From: an uncultured cyanobacterium
Lineage (GTDB): Bacteria; Cyanobacteriota; Cyanobacteriia; PCC-6307; Cyanobiaceae
DNA length: 64,000 nt
Direction: 5' to 3'
Assembly (NCBI GenBank): GCA_903871775.1
Contig: CAIQIA010000011.1
Span: 186,001-250,000, forward strand
Below the pieces are notes generated by a model. The model did no database searches. It worked only from the letters and a program-made list of their open reading frames with translations, and was not told the DNA's origin. Below, one piece after another: positions 7,104 to 36,223 of the stretch. The position numbers and the translations under genes were made by a program. Within the stretch, counting starts at the first letter, position 1; every line of letters begins with the position of its first letter.

Positions 7104-8207
7104 GTGCCTGTCCCCGAGACGCTGCGGCGGCTGCTCAAGCCACCGATCACCCAGGCCTGGCCGGGTCTGATCGACAGCTACCGGCCCTGGTTGCCGGTGA
7201 CGGACCGCACACCGGTGGTGAGCCTCGGCGAAGGCGCGACGCCGCTGGTGCCGGCTCCGGCCCTCGAGCAACGGCTCGGGCGGGGAATCCGGGTGTGGCT
7301 CAAGGTCGACGGTCTCAACCCCACCGGCAGCTTCAAGGACCGGGGGATGACCATGGCGGTGAGCAAGGCCAAGGAAGACGGCGCCGAGGCGGTGATCTGC
7401 GCCAGCACGGGCAACACCTCGGCCGCCGCCGCCGCCTACGCCCGCCGCGGGGGCATGCGGGCCTATGTGCTCATCCCCGATGGCTACGTGGCCCAGGGCA
7501 AGCTCGCCCAGGCCCTTGTCTATGGCGCCGAGGTGCTGGCGGTGAAGGGCAACTTCGACCGGGCTCTGGCGATCGTCCGCGAGGTGGCCGAGCGCTATCC
7601 GGTGACCCTGGTCAACTCGCTCAACCCCTACCGGCTCCAGGGGCAGAAGACGGCCGCCTTCGAGATCGTCGACGTGCTCGGTGATGCCCCCGACTGGCTG
7701 TGCATTCCCATGGGCAACGCCGGCAACATCACGGCGTACTGGATGGGCTTTCAGGAATACCGGCAGAACGGTCGCAGCCGCGGCCTGCCGCGGATGATGG
7801 GCTTCCAGGCCGCCGGTGCGGCGCCGCTGGTGAGCGGCACCACCGTCGAAGACCCCGAAACCGTGGCGACGGCGATCCGCATCGGCAATCCCGCCAACCG
7901 GGCGCGGGCGCTGCAGGTGCGGGAGGAGAGCGGTGGTGGTTTCGCCGCCATCAGCGACGAGGCGATCCTCGAGGCCTACCGCTTCCTTGCCTCTCAGGAG
8001 GGCGTCTTCTGCGAACCGGCCAGCGCCGCATCGGTGGCGGGCCTGCTCAGCCGGGCCGAAGAGGTGCCGGCTGGAGCCCGGGTGGTGTGCGTGCTCACCG
8101 GCAATGGCCTGAAGGACCCCGGCACAGCCCTGGAGAACGGCAGTGCCGGCTTCCACGCCGGGCTGCAGCCCGACCTGGAGACCGTGGCGCGGGTGCTGGG
8201 GTTCTGA
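7104..8207 (+). CDS. thrC: Threonine synthase
   Basis: This PLP enzyme converts O-phosphohomoserine to threonine and phosphate in the last step of threonine synthesis. The 367-residue length is normal for the short bacterial type. The PLP lysine is K78 in NPTGSFKDRG. The phosphate-cradle loop and the STGNTSAAAAAYA motif follow at about residues 100-112, and SLNPYRLQGQKT near 175. The start is GTG 7104, the only reasonable start after the upstream gene. It is the last gene before the candidate origin and dnaN, as in several picocyanobacteria where thrC closes the numbered chromosome. Confidence 0.96.
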   Translation: MPVPETLRRLLKPPITQAWPGLIDSYRPWLPVTDRTPVVSLGEGATPLVPAPALEQRLGRGIRVWLKVDGLNPTGSFKDRGMTMAVSKAKEDGAEAVICASTGNTSAAAAAYARRGGMRAYVLIPDGYVAQGKLAQALVYGAEVLAVKGNFDRALAIVREVAERYPVTLVNSLNPYRLQGQKTAAFEIVDVLGDAPDWLCIPMGNAGNITAYWMGFQEYRQNGRSRGLPRMMGFQAAGAAPLVSGTTVEDPETVATAIRIGNPANRARALQVREESGGGFAAISDEAILEAYRFLASQEGVFCEPASAASVAGLLSRAEEVPAGARVVCVLTGNGLKDPGTALENGSAGFHAGLQPDLETVARVLGF

Positions 8208-28395: not shown

Positions 28396-28884
28396 ATGAC
28401 CGATCCCGGCCGCCGTTCCCTGCTCCGTTCGTTGTTGTCGTTGCCCCTGGCCCTGGCGGCGCCGGGCCGGGCGGCGGCGGCCGAAGCCACCGACCCCGCC
28501 TGGCTCCTCAGCCCGGATGAGTGGCGCCGTCGCCTCAGCCCCGAGGCCTACCGGGTGCTGCGGCAGGAGGGCACCGAACGGCCCTTCACCAGCCCACTCA
28601 ACAACGAAAAGCGCAAGGGCACGTTTCTCTGCGCCGGCTGCCGGCTGCCGTTGTTCGCCAGCAGTAGCAAGTTCGACAGCGGCACCGGCTGGCCCAGCTT
28701 CTGGCAGCCGCTGGCTGGTGCGGTGGCGACCAAGGCCGACTACAAGCTGATCCTGCCGCGCACCGAATACCACTGCCGCCGTTGCGGCGGCCACCAGGGC
28801 CATGTGTTCGACGACGGGCCGGCCCCCACCGGCAAGCGCTACTGCAACAACGGTGTGGCGCTGGTGTTTGACGCCAGCGCATGA
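28396..28884 (+). CDS. msrB: Peptide-methionine (R)-S-oxide reductase, exported
   Basis: MsrB repairs the R-form of oxidised methionine. The 162-residue product has two zinc-binding pairs (CAGC near residue 76 and CRRC near 122), the SGTGWPSFW core and the catalytic cysteine in RYCNNGVAL near the end. The N-terminus GRRSLLRSLLSLPLALAAPG looks like a Tat-type signal, so the enzyme probably acts in the periplasm or lumen. ATG 28381 is a possible alternative start. The stop overlaps the start of the next gene (ATGA at 28881-28884), showing translational coupling. Confidence 0.94.
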   Translation: MTDPGRRSLLRSLLSLPLALAAPGRAAAAEATDPAWLLSPDEWRRRLSPEAYRVLRQEGTERPFTSPLNNEKRKGTFLCAGCRLPLFASSSKFDSGTGWPSFWQPLAGAVATKADYKLILPRTEYHCRRCGGHQGHVFDDGPAPTGKRYCNNGVALVFDASA

Positions 28885-30167
28885 GCAGGCCGGCGGCGTT
28901 GGTGGTGGCGGGGGGTGGAGCGGCCGGTTTTCTGGCGGCCATCACCGCGGCTGAGGCCGGTGTGGCGGATGTGCATGTGCTCGAGGCCACGGCCGAACCG
29001 CTGACGAAGGTGCGCATCAGCGGCGGCGGTCGCTGCAATGTGACCCATGCCTGCTGGGATCCGCTGACGCTGGTGGGCCATTACCCGCGGGGCAGCCGGG
29101 CCCTGCGCGGACCCTTCAGCCGGTTTGCCCCAGGGGATGCCGTCGCCTGGTTCGCCGACCACGGCGTTGAGCTGATCACCGAAGCCGATGGGCGCATGTT
29201 TCCGAGCACCCACAGTTCGGCCACGGTGGTGGCTGCATTGCGTACGGCGGCACGGCGGGCGGGGGTGCAGCTGCACAGCCGATGTGCGTTGCGGGGGGTG
29301 GTGGCCCCTGCGGGGCCGGCTGAACCGTTCGGATTGCAGTTGCGGGGGGAGGGCAGTGGGGCGGCACCGGTGGCCTGCCGGCGGTTGCTGCTGGCGACCG
29401 GTGGCCATCCCAGCGGCCGGGCATTGGCGGCGCAGCTGGGCCATCGGCTGCAGGCGCCGGTGCCGTCGTTGTTCACCGTGCGGCTGCACGAGCCACGGCT
29501 GCAGGCCCTGGCGGGGCTGGTGCAGGAGCCGGTGGGGCTTGAGCTGCAGATCGAGGGGGTGGCCCGCCCGTGGCGCCAGCGGGGGCCGCTGCTGCTCACC
29601 CACTGGGGTTGCAGCGGGCCGGCATTGCTGCGGCTCACGGCCTTTGCCGCCCGCGATCTGGCGGCGGCGGGTTACCGCGGATGGCTCACGGTCGACTGGA
29701 CCGGTGGCCTGCCGGCGGCCGAGGTGCAGGAGGGTCTGCGGCACCAGCGGCAACAGCATGGCGGCCGCACCCTGGGTGCCCAGCGGCCTGTACCAGCGTT
29801 GAGGCGACGGCTGTGGCTGGCGTTGCTGGATCAGGCCCAGCTGGCGGCCGATCTGTGCTGGGCGGCATTGCCACGGGCGGGGGAGCAACGGTTGCTGCAG
29901 GGTCTGCTGGTGAGCAGGTACGCGATCGTGGGGCGTGGGCCCTTCGGTGAAGAATTCGTGACGGCCGGTGGGGTCGATCTGGGCGAGGTGAATCTGGCAA
30001 CCATGGAAAGCCGCCGGGTGAGCGGCCTGCACCTGGCGGGTGAACTGCTGGATGTGGATGGTGTGACCGGCGGCTTCAACTTTCAGCACTGCTGGACCAG
30101 CGGCTGGCTCGCCGGCCAGGCGATCGCGGCGGCATTGGCCGACAGTGGCTCTGGTGATCACGGGTAG
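28881..30167 (+). CDS. HI0933/BaiN-family NAD(P)/FAD-dependent oxidoreductase
   Basis: The 428-residue flavoprotein shows the FAD dinucleotide motif GGGAAGFLAAI (about residues 10-20), the family motif KVRISGGGRCNVTHA (about 42) and the C-terminal TAGGVDLGEVNLATMESR and VTGGFNFQHCWTSGW. The family includes YhiN/HI0933 proteins of uncertain substrate. It is translationally coupled to msrB through ATGA, hinting at a redox-related job. It is the last native gene before the low-GC insertion; a perfect palindrome lies 12 bases after its stop. Confidence 0.9.
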   Translation: MSRPAALVVAGGGAAGFLAAITAAEAGVADVHVLEATAEPLTKVRISGGGRCNVTHACWDPLTLVGHYPRGSRALRGPFSRFAPGDAVAWFADHGVELITEADGRMFPSTHSSATVVAALRTAARRAGVQLHSRCALRGVVAPAGPAEPFGLQLRGEGSGAAPVACRRLLLATGGHPSGRALAAQLGHRLQAPVPSLFTVRLHEPRLQALAGLVQEPVGLELQIEGVARPWRQRGPLLLTHWGCSGPALLRLTAFAARDLAAAGYRGWLTVDWTGGLPAAEVQEGLRHQRQQHGGRTLGAQRPVPALRRRLWLALLDQAQLAADLCWAALPRAGEQRLLQGLLVSRYAIVGRGPFGEEFVTAGGVDLGEVNLATMESRRVSGLHLAGELLDVDGVTGGFNFQHCWTSGWLAGQAIAAALADSGSGDHG

Positions 30168-30178
30168 CGCTCGGAGGG

Positions 30179-30200
30179 TTTTATGCGGGTCTGCATAAAA
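30179..30200. repeat. Perfect 22-bp palindrome at the left border of the low-GC insertion
   Basis: TTTTATGC (30179-30186) and GCATAAAA (30193-30200) are exact reverse complements around the 6-base spacer GGGTCT. The stem is AT-rich and lacks a T-tail, so it is a poor terminator. The geometry (8-bp arms, 6-bp spacer) is that of an operator or of a tyrosine-recombinase core site. It sits exactly where GC content falls. No second copy is seen on the right side of the insertion. Confidence 0.5.
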
Positions 30201-30258
30201 GTCGTCGATTGGATCAAGGATCCCCTGGGTGACCAGTCTGTCTGGGTTTTGGGGCGTT

Positions 30259-30295
30259 ACCACTGGCTGAGCTGGGGATTTATGCTGCCAGTGGT
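30259..30295. repeat. 9-bp inverted repeat upstream of the mrr-like gene
   Basis: ACCACTGGC (30259-30267) pairs perfectly with GCCAGTGGT (30287-30295) across 19 bases, ending 57 bases before the start of the restriction gene. It may be an operator or a 5' leader hairpin. The preceding GCGTTACC (30254-30261) resembles the GCGTTAGC of the attC right end at 31309-31316, but that likeness is weak. The remaining bases of the gap 30168-30352 show no gene. Confidence 0.4.
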
Positions 30296-30352
30296 TGTGA
30301 GTTGCTTTGGTTCAGCGGATCCGTCCAATCAGCGTTGAACCAAGATTGGGCC

Positions 30353-31204
30353 ATGGCAAAGGGACCTCAGTTCACTCGGTATATCCTTCCCATCCTCCAC
30401 GTGCTGAGGGAGATGGGAGGATCAGCCACAGCGGCTGAGGTTACTGATGCGGTTATAGAGCGCGAAGACTTGCCGGAGGAGTTGCTTGAGCAGACAAACA
30501 AGAATGGCCAGTCCAAAGTCCGAAACCAGATTGCATGGGCGCGGATGTATTTGGTCCATTCAGGACATATTGACTCATCTACGCGGGGCGTCTGGAGGCT
30601 AACTGACAAGGGCCAACACGAGGATTTGGCGAAGCTCAATGTCTCTTCGCTGTTTAAGGGTGTTCAAAGTGTATTCAAGGCAAATGCGGAGGATCTCACC
30701 CCAGCAAAGCCCTCTGAATCTGTCGAGGAAGCCGAGAGTCGATTTGAAGCTGAGGAGACAGCGCTTCTCCCGGTGATCAAATCACTCAGTCCCGAAGGAT
30801 TTGAGCGCCTGTGTCAACGGTTATTGCGGGAGTACGGATTCCAGAATGTGCGAGTAACCGGACGCTCCGGTGATGGAGGAATCGACGGCGAAGGGATACT
30901 TGAGATTAATCCACTACTCAGCTTCAAAGTCTTATTTCAGTGCAAGCGTTACCAGGGCTCTGTAGGGGCCGCAATGATCAGAGACTTTCGTGGAGCGCTC
31001 ATCGGTAAGGCTGACAAGGGGATTCTGCTCACAACGGGAAGCTTCACAATGGATGCCAAGCGCGAGGCAGTTAGAGACGGTGCTAATCCAATCGAATTGG
31101 TTGACGGTGAAAAGCTTGTCAGGATGTTTGAGCGTCTTGAGCTGGGTGTCAAGCCTAAAGTTGTCTACGAAGTTGACTTGGAGTTCTTCAATGACTTCAA
31201 GTGA
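30353..31204 (+). CDS. mrr: Mrr-type restriction endonuclease
   Basis: Mrr is a type IV restriction enzyme that cuts modified DNA. From ATG 30353 the product has 283 residues. The N-terminal part (about 1-90) is a winged-helix Mrr_N domain (FTRYILPILHVLREMGG then QNQIAW-like VRNQIAWARMYL). The C-terminal Mrr catalytic domain has SPEGFERLCQRLLREYGF, GDGGIDGEGIL with the catalytic Asp, and FQCKRYQGS, the PD-(D/E)xK-type QxK motif. All active-site residues look intact. GC content and codon use are plainly lower than in the flanks, a sign of transfer. The stop is followed after 9 bases by an attC-like site, as for a gene cassette. Confidence 0.9.
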   Translation: MAKGPQFTRYILPILHVLREMGGSATAAEVTDAVIEREDLPEELLEQTNKNGQSKVRNQIAWARMYLVHSGHIDSSTRGVWRLTDKGQHEDLAKLNVSSLFKGVQSVFKANAEDLTPAKPSESVEEAESRFEAEETALLPVIKSLSPEGFERLCQRLLREYGFQNVRVTGRSGDGGIDGEGILEINPLLSFKVLFQCKRYQGSVGAAMIRDFRGALIGKADKGILLTTGSFTMDAKREAVRDGANPIELVDGEKLVRMFERLELGVKPKVVYEVDLEFFNDFK

Positions 31205-31213
31205 GCAGGGTCT

Positions 31214-31316
31214 TTCTAACACGGCCATGCACCTGACCCGCCACCGCAGATTCACCATGCCCACTGAGTATCTTCTCTTATGGCTCTTTGCAGGCAGGTG
31301 ATGGCCAGCGTTAGCA
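31214..31316 (+). other. Integron-type attC-like recombination site
   Basis: The left end CTAACACGGCCATGCACCTG (31216-31235) and the right end CAGGTGATGGCCAGCGTTAG (31295-31314) form an imperfect inverted repeat. Read against the reverse complement of the right arm, CTAAC, GGCCAT and CACCTG match exactly. One unpaired G (31229) interrupts the left arm and one extra base the right arm. The outer boxes TTCTAAC (31214-31220) and GTTAGCA (31310-31316) match the R'' (RYYYAAC) and R' (GTTRRRY) boxes except at single positions. Total length (103 bases), a bulged base and position 9 bases after a stop codon are all typical of attC sites. No integrase gene is in the window. Confidence 0.72.
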
Positions 31317-31383
31317 AGAGCAGGGGGGATGCGCGGAGGTTGCCGCTGTGGCCACAATGTGATCACGTCTGCGGGGTGGGGTG

Positions 31384-31626
31384 ATGGTTCGAGCAAAGCT
31401 GGTCAAAATCGGTAACTCGAGAGGGATTCGCCTCGCCAAGCCGTTGCTTGAGGTTGCAGGGTTGGCTGAGGAAGTCGAGATTGAGGCTTCTCCAGGGGTT
31501 CTGACCATCAGGCCCTCTGCTCACTCGAGGGCTGGCTGGGCAGAGGCAGCAGCGTCGGTCTAGCCGGAGGGGCTTCTTGATGAGATGAGCGCTACACGGT
31601 TTGATGATGAAGAGTGGTCATGGTGA
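31384..31626 (+). pseudogene. mazE: MazE-like antitoxin interrupted by an in-frame TAG
   Basis: The frame starts at ATG 31384 with the AbrB/MazE DNA-binding motif MVRAKLVKIGNSRGIRLAKPLL split as usual into VKIGNSRGIR and LAKPLLE. It meets TAG at 31561-31563 after 59 residues. Reading through gives PEGLLDEMSATRFDDEEWSW and a TGA at 31624-31626, which is the acidic, Trp-rich toxin-binding C-terminus normal for MazE. One base change (CAG to TAG) would explain it. The full-length frame overlaps the mazF start (ATGGTGA), the usual coupling. The truncated product would keep DNA binding but lose the toxin-neutralising tail. A sequencing error or stop-codon readthrough is possible. Confidence 0.8.
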
Positions 31627-31913
31627 CTGAGGAGCGTGTCTCACGAGGTGACATCTTCCTTGTCGCGTTGAATCCCACCCGAGGGTCTGAAATCAGGAAG
31701 GCCAGGCCTTGTGTCATTGTGGCGCCGCTCACCACCGGCGGCCATCCATACCCGTTCCGTGTGCGTAGCAAGTTAGATGGCAAAGACGGTTATGTTGTAG
31801 CTGACCAGCTCAGGGCCGTAGATAAGGAACGTCTCGTCAGGCGATTGGGGAGCCTGTCGGAGACTACGTTGACTGAGCTGCTGGGTGTTCTTCAGGCGAT
31901 GTTCGCTGTGTAG
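31620..31913 (+). CDS. mazF: MazF-family mRNA interferase toxin
   Basis: MazF cuts mRNA at short single-strand sites and is normally neutralised by MazE. The 97-residue product (ATG 31620) has RGDIFLVALNPTRGSEIRKARP, split here as RGDIFLVALNPTRGSE and the catalytic-arginine segment IRKARPCVIV, followed by the conserved VADQLRAVDKERL motif. It appears full length and undamaged. Two residues more are possible from GTG 31614. The start overlaps the full-length antitoxin frame. An attC-like half-site begins 7 bases after the stop. Intact toxin next to a nonsense-mutated antitoxin is odd and discussed in the findings. Confidence 0.9.
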   Translation: MVTEERVSRGDIFLVALNPTRGSEIRKARPCVIVAPLTTGGHPYPFRVRSKLDGKDGYVVADQLRAVDKERLVRRLGSLSETTLTELLGVLQAMFAV

Positions 31914-31919
31914 AGGCCT

Positions 31920-31954
31920 TGCTAACACGCCCCTGCACCTGGCCCGCCAGCGCA
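31920..31954 (+). other. Left half of a second attC-like site
   Basis: GCTAACACGCCCCTGCACCTG (31921 onward) and the following GGCCCGCCAGCGCA repeat the left arm of the attC-like site at 31214-31250 with only a few changes (shared CTAACACG-CC-TGCACCTG-CCCGCCA-CGCA). It begins 7 bases after the mazF stop. No matching right half (CAGGTG...GTTAG) is recognisable in the next 250 bases, so the site is truncated or badly decayed. The remaining gap to 32184 contains no gene that I can support. Confidence 0.6.
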
Positions 31955-34999: not shown

Positions 35000-36223
35000 T
35001 CACTTGATCTTGTCAAACACGCTGAACATCGGCAGGTACATCGCCATCAGAATCGAGCCCACAATGCCGCCCACCAGCACGATCATCATCGGTTCGAGCA
35101 TGGCCGTCATCGCCTTCACGGTCGCCGAGATCTCGTCTTCGTAGAAGTCGGCCACCTTCGAGAGCATGCCGTCGAGCTGGCCGGTTTCTTCACCGATGGC
35201 CAGCATGCTCATCGCCATGTCGGGAAACACCTGCCGCCGGTTCAGGGCCTGGCTCAACATGCCACCCTCCTGCACCTCATGCTTCGAGGCCTCGACCGCA
35301 TCCGCCAGGATGCTGTTGCCGACCGTGTCACGCACGATGTCGAGCGTCATCAGAATCGGCACCCCCGCCCGGCTCAATGAACTGAACGTGCGGCAGAACT
35401 GGGCCGTTGCTGTTTTCTGGATCAGGTCACCGAACAACGGCACCTTGAGCAATAACGCATCGATCTGCCGCCGCCCGCTGCGGCTTGCATACAGCTGCTG
35501 GATGCCCCACACCAGCAGCAGCAGCAGCCCCGCCAGCACCAGCGAGAACGATGACCGCAGCAGACCACTGAGGTCGACCATGAACTGCGTGAACGGCGGC
35601 AGGTCGGCCCCCAGTTCCTTGAAGATGCCCGCAAAGGTGGGAATCAGAAAGATCGTCATCCCCAGAAACACCAATATCGCGATCGCGAGCACCGTCAGCG
35701 GATACCCCAGCGCCCCACGGATCTGGTTGCGCAGCTTGGCGTTGTCTTCGAGCAGTTTCGCCAGCCGCTTCAGCACCTCCTCCAGCACCCCACCGGCTTC
35801 GCCGGCTTCAATCATCGCCACCGTCAGCTGGTCGAACACCTGCGGCCATCGCCGCATCGCCGATCCCAGCGAGGCGCCCTGGTTCACATCCTGCGCCACC
35901 CGCGTGATCGCCCGCCGGAACAGCGGCTGCTTCTGCTGCCTTGCCATCAGGTCGAGGCTGCGCACGATCGGCACCCCCGCCCCCACCAGGGCCGCCAGCT
36001 TGCTGGCGAACACCGCCTTCTCCTTCACCCCCGGGGCCTGTTCCAGCTGCAGCCGCAATCCCCGCTGCACCTTGTCGATGCGTTCGGCTTCGGCCTTGAG
36101 GCTCAACGCCAGAATTCCCCGCTGCCGCAGCAGCCGTTTGGCCGCCTGCAGGTCAGCGGCGGTAAGCCGCAGCTGCTTTTCGCGCCCCTGCCGGTCCCGG
36201 TAGGTGGCCAGGTAGCTCGTCAT
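35000..36223 (-). CDS. pilC: Type IV pilus inner-membrane platform protein
   Basis: PilC (GspF family) is the inner-membrane platform on which the assembly ATPases act. The 407-residue product has the two repeated cytoplasmic helical domains (KLAALVGAGVPIVRSLDLM near 78 and RTFSSLSRAGVPILMTLDIV near 285) and three membrane segments (about 170-190, 220-240 and 375-395). The start overlaps the pilT stop (ATGA at 36220-36223). It ends the pilB-pilT-pilC operon. Confidence 0.95.
   Translation of the reverse strand: MTSYLATYRDRQGREKQLRLTAADLQAAKRLLRQRGILALSLKAEAERIDKVQRGLRLQLEQAPGVKEKAVFASKLAALVGAGVPIVRSLDLMARQQKQPLFRRAITRVAQDVNQGASLGSAMRRWPQVFDQLTVAMIEAGEAGGVLEEVLKRLAKLLEDNAKLRNQIRGALGYPLTVLAIAILVFLGMTIFLIPTFAGIFKELGADLPPFTQFMVDLSGLLRSSFSLVLAGLLLLLVWGIQQLYASRSGRRQIDALLLKVPLFGDLIQKTATAQFCRTFSSLSRAGVPILMTLDIVRDTVGNSILADAVEASKHEVQEGGMLSQALNRRQVFPDMAMSMLAIGEETGQLDGMLSKVADFYEDEISATVKAMTAMLEPMMIVLVGGIVGSILMAMYLPMFSVFDKIK

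Follow-up and report, generated by a model that had tools for sequence, protein, structure and literature searches.

The window analysed here, the 64,000-nucleotide stretch C11:186001-250000, belongs to a 2.57 Mb genome assembled into 27 contigs. Within the window, an HI0933-like flavoprotein gene and a pilC gene, both part of the host chromosome, are separated by 4.8 kb of DNA containing an attI site, two gene cassettes, a complete attC site, half of a second attC and a gene for a DUF1254/DUF1214 protein (Table 1). The elements are arranged in the order attI - Mrr cassette - attC - MazEF cassette (damaged) - half attC. As the original prediction had remarked, GC content is low in this region, with values of 52% for the Mrr cassette and 59% for the MazEF cassette against 70% for the window; less than 0.1% of equal-sized window stretches reach a value as low as that of the Mrr cassette.

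Table 1. Features of the integron-derived locus and its flanks (positions are those of the window).
Feature	Position	Strand	Remarks
Left flank, HI0933-like flavoprotein gene (host chromosome)	28881..30167	+	Adjoins pilC in L098-L101
attI	30175..30346	+	Blocks at about 30176-30204 and 30310-30334; crossover G30334^T30335; nhmmer profile and visual alignment
Gene cassette 1 (Mrr)	30335..31310	+	Begins at the T that follows the attI crossover and ends at the G of the attC R' core; predicted from integron chemistry
mrr, Mrr-type (type IV, methyl-directed) restriction endonuclease, 283 aa	30353..31204	+	Pfam Mrr_cat 2e-32, Mrr_N 3e-21; PADLOC mREase_IV 4e-30
attC site, complete	31214-31316	+	103 nt; alignment, covariance model, covariation, folding
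attC R'' box TTCTAAC	31214-31220	+	CTAAC at 31216-31220
attC unpaired spacer	AC 31221-31222 / AGC 31307-31309	+	Sequence
attC L box	31223-31235 with 31295-31306	+	GGCCAT 31223-31228, CACCTG 31230-31235
attC extrahelical bases	G31229, A31236	+	Sequence
attC terminal part	31237-31294	+	Sequence
attC right arm	CAGGTG 31295-31300, ATGGCC 31301-31306	+	Sequence
attC R' box GTTAGCA	31310-31316	+	Sequence
Gene cassette 2 (MazEF), ending in truncated attC	31311..31950	+	Homologous block in five other places
mazE-like antitoxin	31381..31563	+	Cut by TAG where the C6 copy has GAG
mazF/pemK-like toxin	31614..31913	+	PemK_toxin 6e-19; 42-bp in-frame deletion relative to the C6 copy
Left half of second attC	31920..31948	+	R'' TGCTAAC and L'' arm; alignment with the complete attC in the C6 copy
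DUF1254/DUF1214 protein, 932 aa	32185..34983	+	Within the inserted segment; absent from empty sites
Right flank, pilC (host chromosome)	35000..36223	-	Named from likeness to type IV pilus assembly protein PilC

The hairpin that follows mrr had been proposed to be an integron recombination site. Re-examination of the sequence showed the arms, boxes and bulged base to lie exactly where the original prediction had placed them: the pairings CTAAC/GTTAG, GGCCAT/ATGGCC and CACCTG/CAGGTG are all present with G31229 bulged, and the stop codon at 31204 is indeed followed, at a distance of 9 bases, by the start of the site at 31214. Absent from that prediction were the attI, the truncated second attC after the MazEF cassette, the second extrahelical base (A31236) and an extra five-pair stem, CCCGC/GCAGG (31237-31241 with 31290-31294), in which a single C-A mismatch in the top strand becomes a G-T pair in the bottom strand. 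By definition, attC sites have an L box, an unpaired central spacer, two to three extrahelical bases and a variable terminal structure (PMC11641012). All of these are found here, the spacer being AC/AGC and the extrahelical bases G31229 and A31236. The site is an imperfect palindrome able to form a hairpin and, at 103 nt, lies within the size limit of about 150 nt. The R-box motif RYYYAAC/GTTRRRY with its G^TT core is represented by CTAAC/GTTAG, the outer letters of the 7-mers TTCTAAC and GTTAGCA deviating slightly from the strict consensus. The site closes the 3' end of the Mrr cassette, and the next cassette begins at G^TT. Folded as DNA, the bottom strand has an energy of -21.6 kcal/mol (z -3.2, with one shuffle in 200 doing as well), as compared to -15.4 kcal/mol (z -1.4) for the top strand. 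The preferential folding of the bottom strand extends to six of the seven attC sites of the genome, with a tie in the remaining one. An asymmetry of wobble pairs on the bottom strand, taken over all sites, was discarded as evidence because it is mainly due to one spacer pair.

Elsewhere in the genome, six homologues were identified besides the window site. BLAST with the hairpin sequence returned five relatives within the genome. A covariance model was built on the genome's seven sites and then run on the genome itself and on its relatives. In the former, it returned exactly these seven sites (E about 1e-14 or better, the next match being at E=1.65); as the model was trained on the seven sites themselves, what is informative is the score gap and the matches in other genomes. 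The sites are distributed among contigs C11 (the window, one), C4 (three), C6 (two) and C27 (one), and all seven lie at cassette borders. In the family (Cyanobiaceae), 74 of 300 genomes contain a match to the attC model at E<=1e-3.

The integrase gene, which the original prediction had supposed to be either distant or lost, is represented in this genome by broken pieces: two frames at C4:73251-73642 and, at C27:30908, a stretch of 29 residues. An intact intI was found nowhere in the genome. Downstream of the pieces at either locus come an attI region, cassettes and attC. Contig C4 ends beside its attC array and C6 ends beside attI and cassettes; because both contigs end in or beside cassette arrays, the two may be one array broken by the assembly, and the array there is probably incomplete. 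Within the C4 cassette array, a transposase-like gene interrupted by a stop codon (L014:6820-7961) lies just ahead of the attC at 8028-8111.

Among the relatives, the integron integrase model TIGR02249 matched 72 of the 300 family genomes (60 of which exceeded the curated cut-off) and no genome in a control set of 14. An intact IntI from a relative scored 466 bits (cut-off, 265) and proved homologous to VchIntIA, the integrase of the Vibrio cholerae superintegron (PDB 2a3v), over 307 residues (aligned 4-310; E=2e-89), with the IntI-specific insertion region common to both. The occurrence of intI and that of attC are tightly associated: 62 of the 300 genomes have both, 10 have only intI, 12 have only attC and 216 have neither (Fisher p=5e-41, a value that overstates the number of independent events since the genomes share descent). 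The position of attC relative to intI was tallied by searching 14 complete or near-complete genomes, which yielded 50 attC sites in 12 genomes (G180 had no attC and G174 was left out). Thirty of the 50 sites lie within 15 kb of intI or of a remnant, and all 30 are downstream and in the same direction as intI; the other 20 lie in clusters with no intI nearby.

In relatives with an intact intI, two conserved blocks about 150 bp apart are found downstream from the gene and are followed by GTT. An nhmmer profile was made from the attI regions that follow intact intI genes in 21 relatives, all from one IntI subclade, the window being excluded. It identified a complete attI at 30175-30346 (E=8e-11), immediately ahead of the first cassette. 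This was the sole significant match of the profile in the 64 kb and in six other loci. A profile from a second subclade (13 relatives) matched C4 (E=6e-20), C27 (E=2e-27) and C6 (E=1e-12) instead. Since the two profiles match different loci, the genome must once have carried at least two integron types, that of the window differing from the type at the C4, C27 and C6 loci. The mrr start codon lies 18 bp past the attI crossover, and the gene looks intact.

The MazEF block (31303/31307-31948) recurs with 77-84% identity in five other places in four genomes: two of these are in G023, one in G051, one in G229 and the remaining one in contig C6 of the genome studied here. Every copy starts within 7 bases of the G^TT core. 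With the intact pair in C6 as reference, the window copy is seen to be damaged in both genes, and because of the premature TAG in MazE and the 42-bp loss in MazF the pair is probably dead, as is its attC. The right half of the latter is absent, and the covariance model finds no full site after MazEF. The DUF1254/DUF1214 gene further downstream is possibly a former cassette, a passenger or integron cargo; in three relatives, no attC was found beside it. In G037, which belongs to another genus, such a gene also lies downstream of an intI remnant, at another place in the chromosome (L216:4837-7814). The origin of this gene and the segment 31951-32184 fall outside the account of a decayed integron developed below.

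In four other genera (L098, L099, L100 and L101), the HI0933-like gene and pilC are convergent and directly abut each other. Neither intI nor a remnant of it was found within the window. The orthologous place in G032, the sole other genome of the genus compared, contains an intI remnant with both ends recognisable and the middle lost, a second, N-terminal intI remnant on the opposite strand, and cassettes in reverse orientation with another attC type. In that genome (L102, contig 41, 1350-4300, minus strand), the two inverted intI remnants enclose a ParDE-like cassette, whose attC differs in type: GCTCAAGATCAGAAGCGG ... CCGCTGTATCTTGATGTTAG. Because intI is missing from the window and persists as a remnant at the G032 locus, the window locus is the remnant of an integron rather than an integron. 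From the G032 remnants it also follows that the platform formerly possessed an IntI of its own, since lost. In the simplest account of these sequences, a platform with intI would predate the split of the two species, and intI would then have been lost wholly in the lineage of the window. Thus, of the two possibilities raised by the original prediction, a lost integrase is the better supported, by the attI in the window and the intI remnants of G032, and a distant one less so.

Alternatively, an integrase working in trans could have inserted a lone cassette outside any integron, into an attG site of the genome. Such insertion is an established route (Loot 2024, as cited in PMC12444791) and would agree with the lack of intI in the window and with the attC clusters of complete relatives that have no intI nearby. 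This explanation was set aside because a full-length attI, with both conserved blocks, was found ahead of the Mrr cassette; furthermore, two cassettes lie in series and the same-genus G032 keeps intI remnants at the same site. We therefore consider attG insertion improbable, and the attI together with the G032 remnants leads us to favour a decayed integron over a mere lone attC or a cassette that landed far from any integron.

An alignment of 65 distinct sites from many genomes provided further evidence on the nature of the hairpin. The 23 stem pairs are paired in 92.7% of cases, against 32-44% when slid by 1-3 columns, and double-changed cells number 62 compared to 22.9 in shuffles, no shuffle matching any of the observed measures; the alignment was fitted to the proposed structure, so the pairing counts lean towards it, while the double changes are less easily explained in that way. 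The R-box cores are largely kept (GTT in 59 sites, AAC in 62). The loops vary freely while arms and R boxes stay conserved, a pattern that fits attC sites and not a transposable repeat. A dispersed, non-mobile or transposable element of the MITE or REP type, unrelated to integrons, could produce several similar hairpins in the genome and its relatives, but would leave unexplained why arms covary around unconserved loops, why there are only seven copies in the genome with every one at a cassette border, why the hairpins are so closely linked to intI in presence, side and orientation, and why 216 of the 228 intI-free family genomes have no attC; we give it next to no chance. Equally far-fetched is a role downstream of mrr as a transcription terminator or regulatory RNA hairpin, for which the location directly behind the stop codon would speak, but not the long variable loop, the missing T-run, the better folding of the bottom strand relative to the would-be transcribed one, the lack of any Rfam match in the window or the terminator scan, which returned nothing at the hairpin site. 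Anatomy, covariation, cassette borders, co-occurrence with intI and the side and orientation relative to intI all support the attC identity originally proposed. Membership in the attC family rests on a model from the genome's own sites and on the independent links to intI. We conclude that the hairpin is almost certainly the attC belonging to an Mrr cassette of a chromosomal integron that has decayed, and infer that the site underwent recombination.

The history of the decayed integron may be pictured as follows. The ancestor of the genus would have had, between the HI0933-like gene and pilC, an intI with attI downstream and cassettes in the direction of intI. The substrate bound by IntI would be the folded bottom strand of attC, which the enzyme would join to attI through a cut at G^TT; single cassettes would be inserted in order, and Mrr and MazEF would have entered in this manner. 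At a later time, a deletion reaching roughly to attI would have removed intI, damage would have struck the MazEF genes as well as the last attC, and the array would have become fixed. Anatomy, homology, attI, cassette borders, the empty site in other genera, the integrase remnants at the orthologous locus and the intact integrases of relatives are observed, while strand choice, crossover point and order of decay in this scheme are those we infer.

Integrons of Cyanobacteria are listed in reviews (PMC8618304, PMC9668308), a Synechococcus IntI appears in published trees (PMC3108266, PMC3607928) and a Cyanobacteria-specific attC covariance model, attC-taxa, has been published; as described in that report (PMC8352920), a recognisable sequence and structure are common to cyanobacterial attC, as is the case here. 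Hence integrons and attC of Cyanobacteria are already described, and the window is a decayed addition to a known kind. The Synechococcus IntI falls within a cluster with those of Treponema, Blastopirellula and Kuenenia (PMC3607928), which is the same IntI family with cassettes bearing attC. Unlike in this cluster, intI here is broken or gone, and the genomes of relatives each contain several small platforms in place of one array. The attI sites seen in this study lie on the 3' side of intI, with cassettes in the intI direction; an inverted layout (attI 3' of intI) is typical of the cluster. The window shares with CALIN and SALIN the presence of attC without a neighbouring intI, but retains attI, and the loss of intI at the locus can be deduced from the same-genus G032. 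A CALIN, in IntegronFinder terms, has at least two complete attC and no intI, whereas the window has one complete and one half attC; SALIN, the term for a single attC without integrase, would apply to a one-site case. The Vibrio superintegron is one large array, whereas the clusters described here have from one to about six detected attC. A literature search with thin coverage of subscription journals found no papers focused on integrons in Cyanobium, Vulcanococcus or picocyanobacteria. The frequency, multi-locus nature and defence load of picocyanobacterial integrons are apparently undescribed so far.

Integron platforms are present in about one quarter of the sampled species of the family and one third of its high-quality genomes. 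Carriers include Cyanobium spp., Synechococcus sp. 1G10 and Tobar12-5m-g, and Vulcanococcus limneticus LL; intI is intact in strains 1G10 and LL. In carrier species, platforms are often several per genome and loaded with restriction and toxin-antitoxin genes. The 61 integron loci have 38 different upstream contexts, placing platforms at many chromosomal positions, and many genes in the relatives' arrays have their stop codon inside the R'' box. Cargo, in a sample picked by eye and not amounting to a count, comprises Mrr homologues, HicAB, a TIR-TPR protein, a GmrSD/NsnA-like protein, a type IIG restriction enzyme and a PDC-S11 candidate defence protein. Deep IntI subclades coexist in single genomes: G242 (three copies), G285, G291, G297, G188 and G156. 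Tentatively, and at somewhat less than even chances, picocyanobacterial integrons could be described as several small platforms per genome, with different coexisting integrases, tens of chromosomal sites and a single attC type. Cassettes for defence and toxin-antitoxin functions would be exchanged between platforms, both inside a species and across species, and the platforms themselves would relocate and then decay. Many small platforms, divergent integrases and a shared attC type form a pattern worth specialist attention. Picocyanobacteria are among the most abundant photosynthetic cells, and gene exchange in them is usually attributed to phages and other islands; cassette capture is an additional route visible in these organisms.

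In a sample of 292 genomes from the phylum, 12 of those outside the family contain an intI that exceeds the cut-off. In a tree of IntI sequences, 50 picocyanobacterial IntI grouped apart from seven of other cyanobacteria (100/100), a grouping which, all rows being cyanobacterial, says nothing on monophyly among all IntI. Outside the family, the sequences closest to the query integrase include some from metagenome-assembled genomes labelled Actinomycetes (66%), Planctomycetota (63%) and Treponema (61%), and because of these matches transfer is likely. The attC model also gives weaker matches (32-51 bits) in some 45 cyanobacterial genomes from outside the family, the majority lacking an intI match; two of these sequences (L225:1501-1590 and L226:1501-1581) are attC-like on reading. 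No attC able to move a whole platform was seen upstream of intI. A short motif resembling GGGRAnnCTGAA is conserved 35-60 bp upstream of nearly all picocyanobacterial intI (L020-L049, L109-L128), the preceding genes being different; it could be either a promoter element or the left end of the platform.
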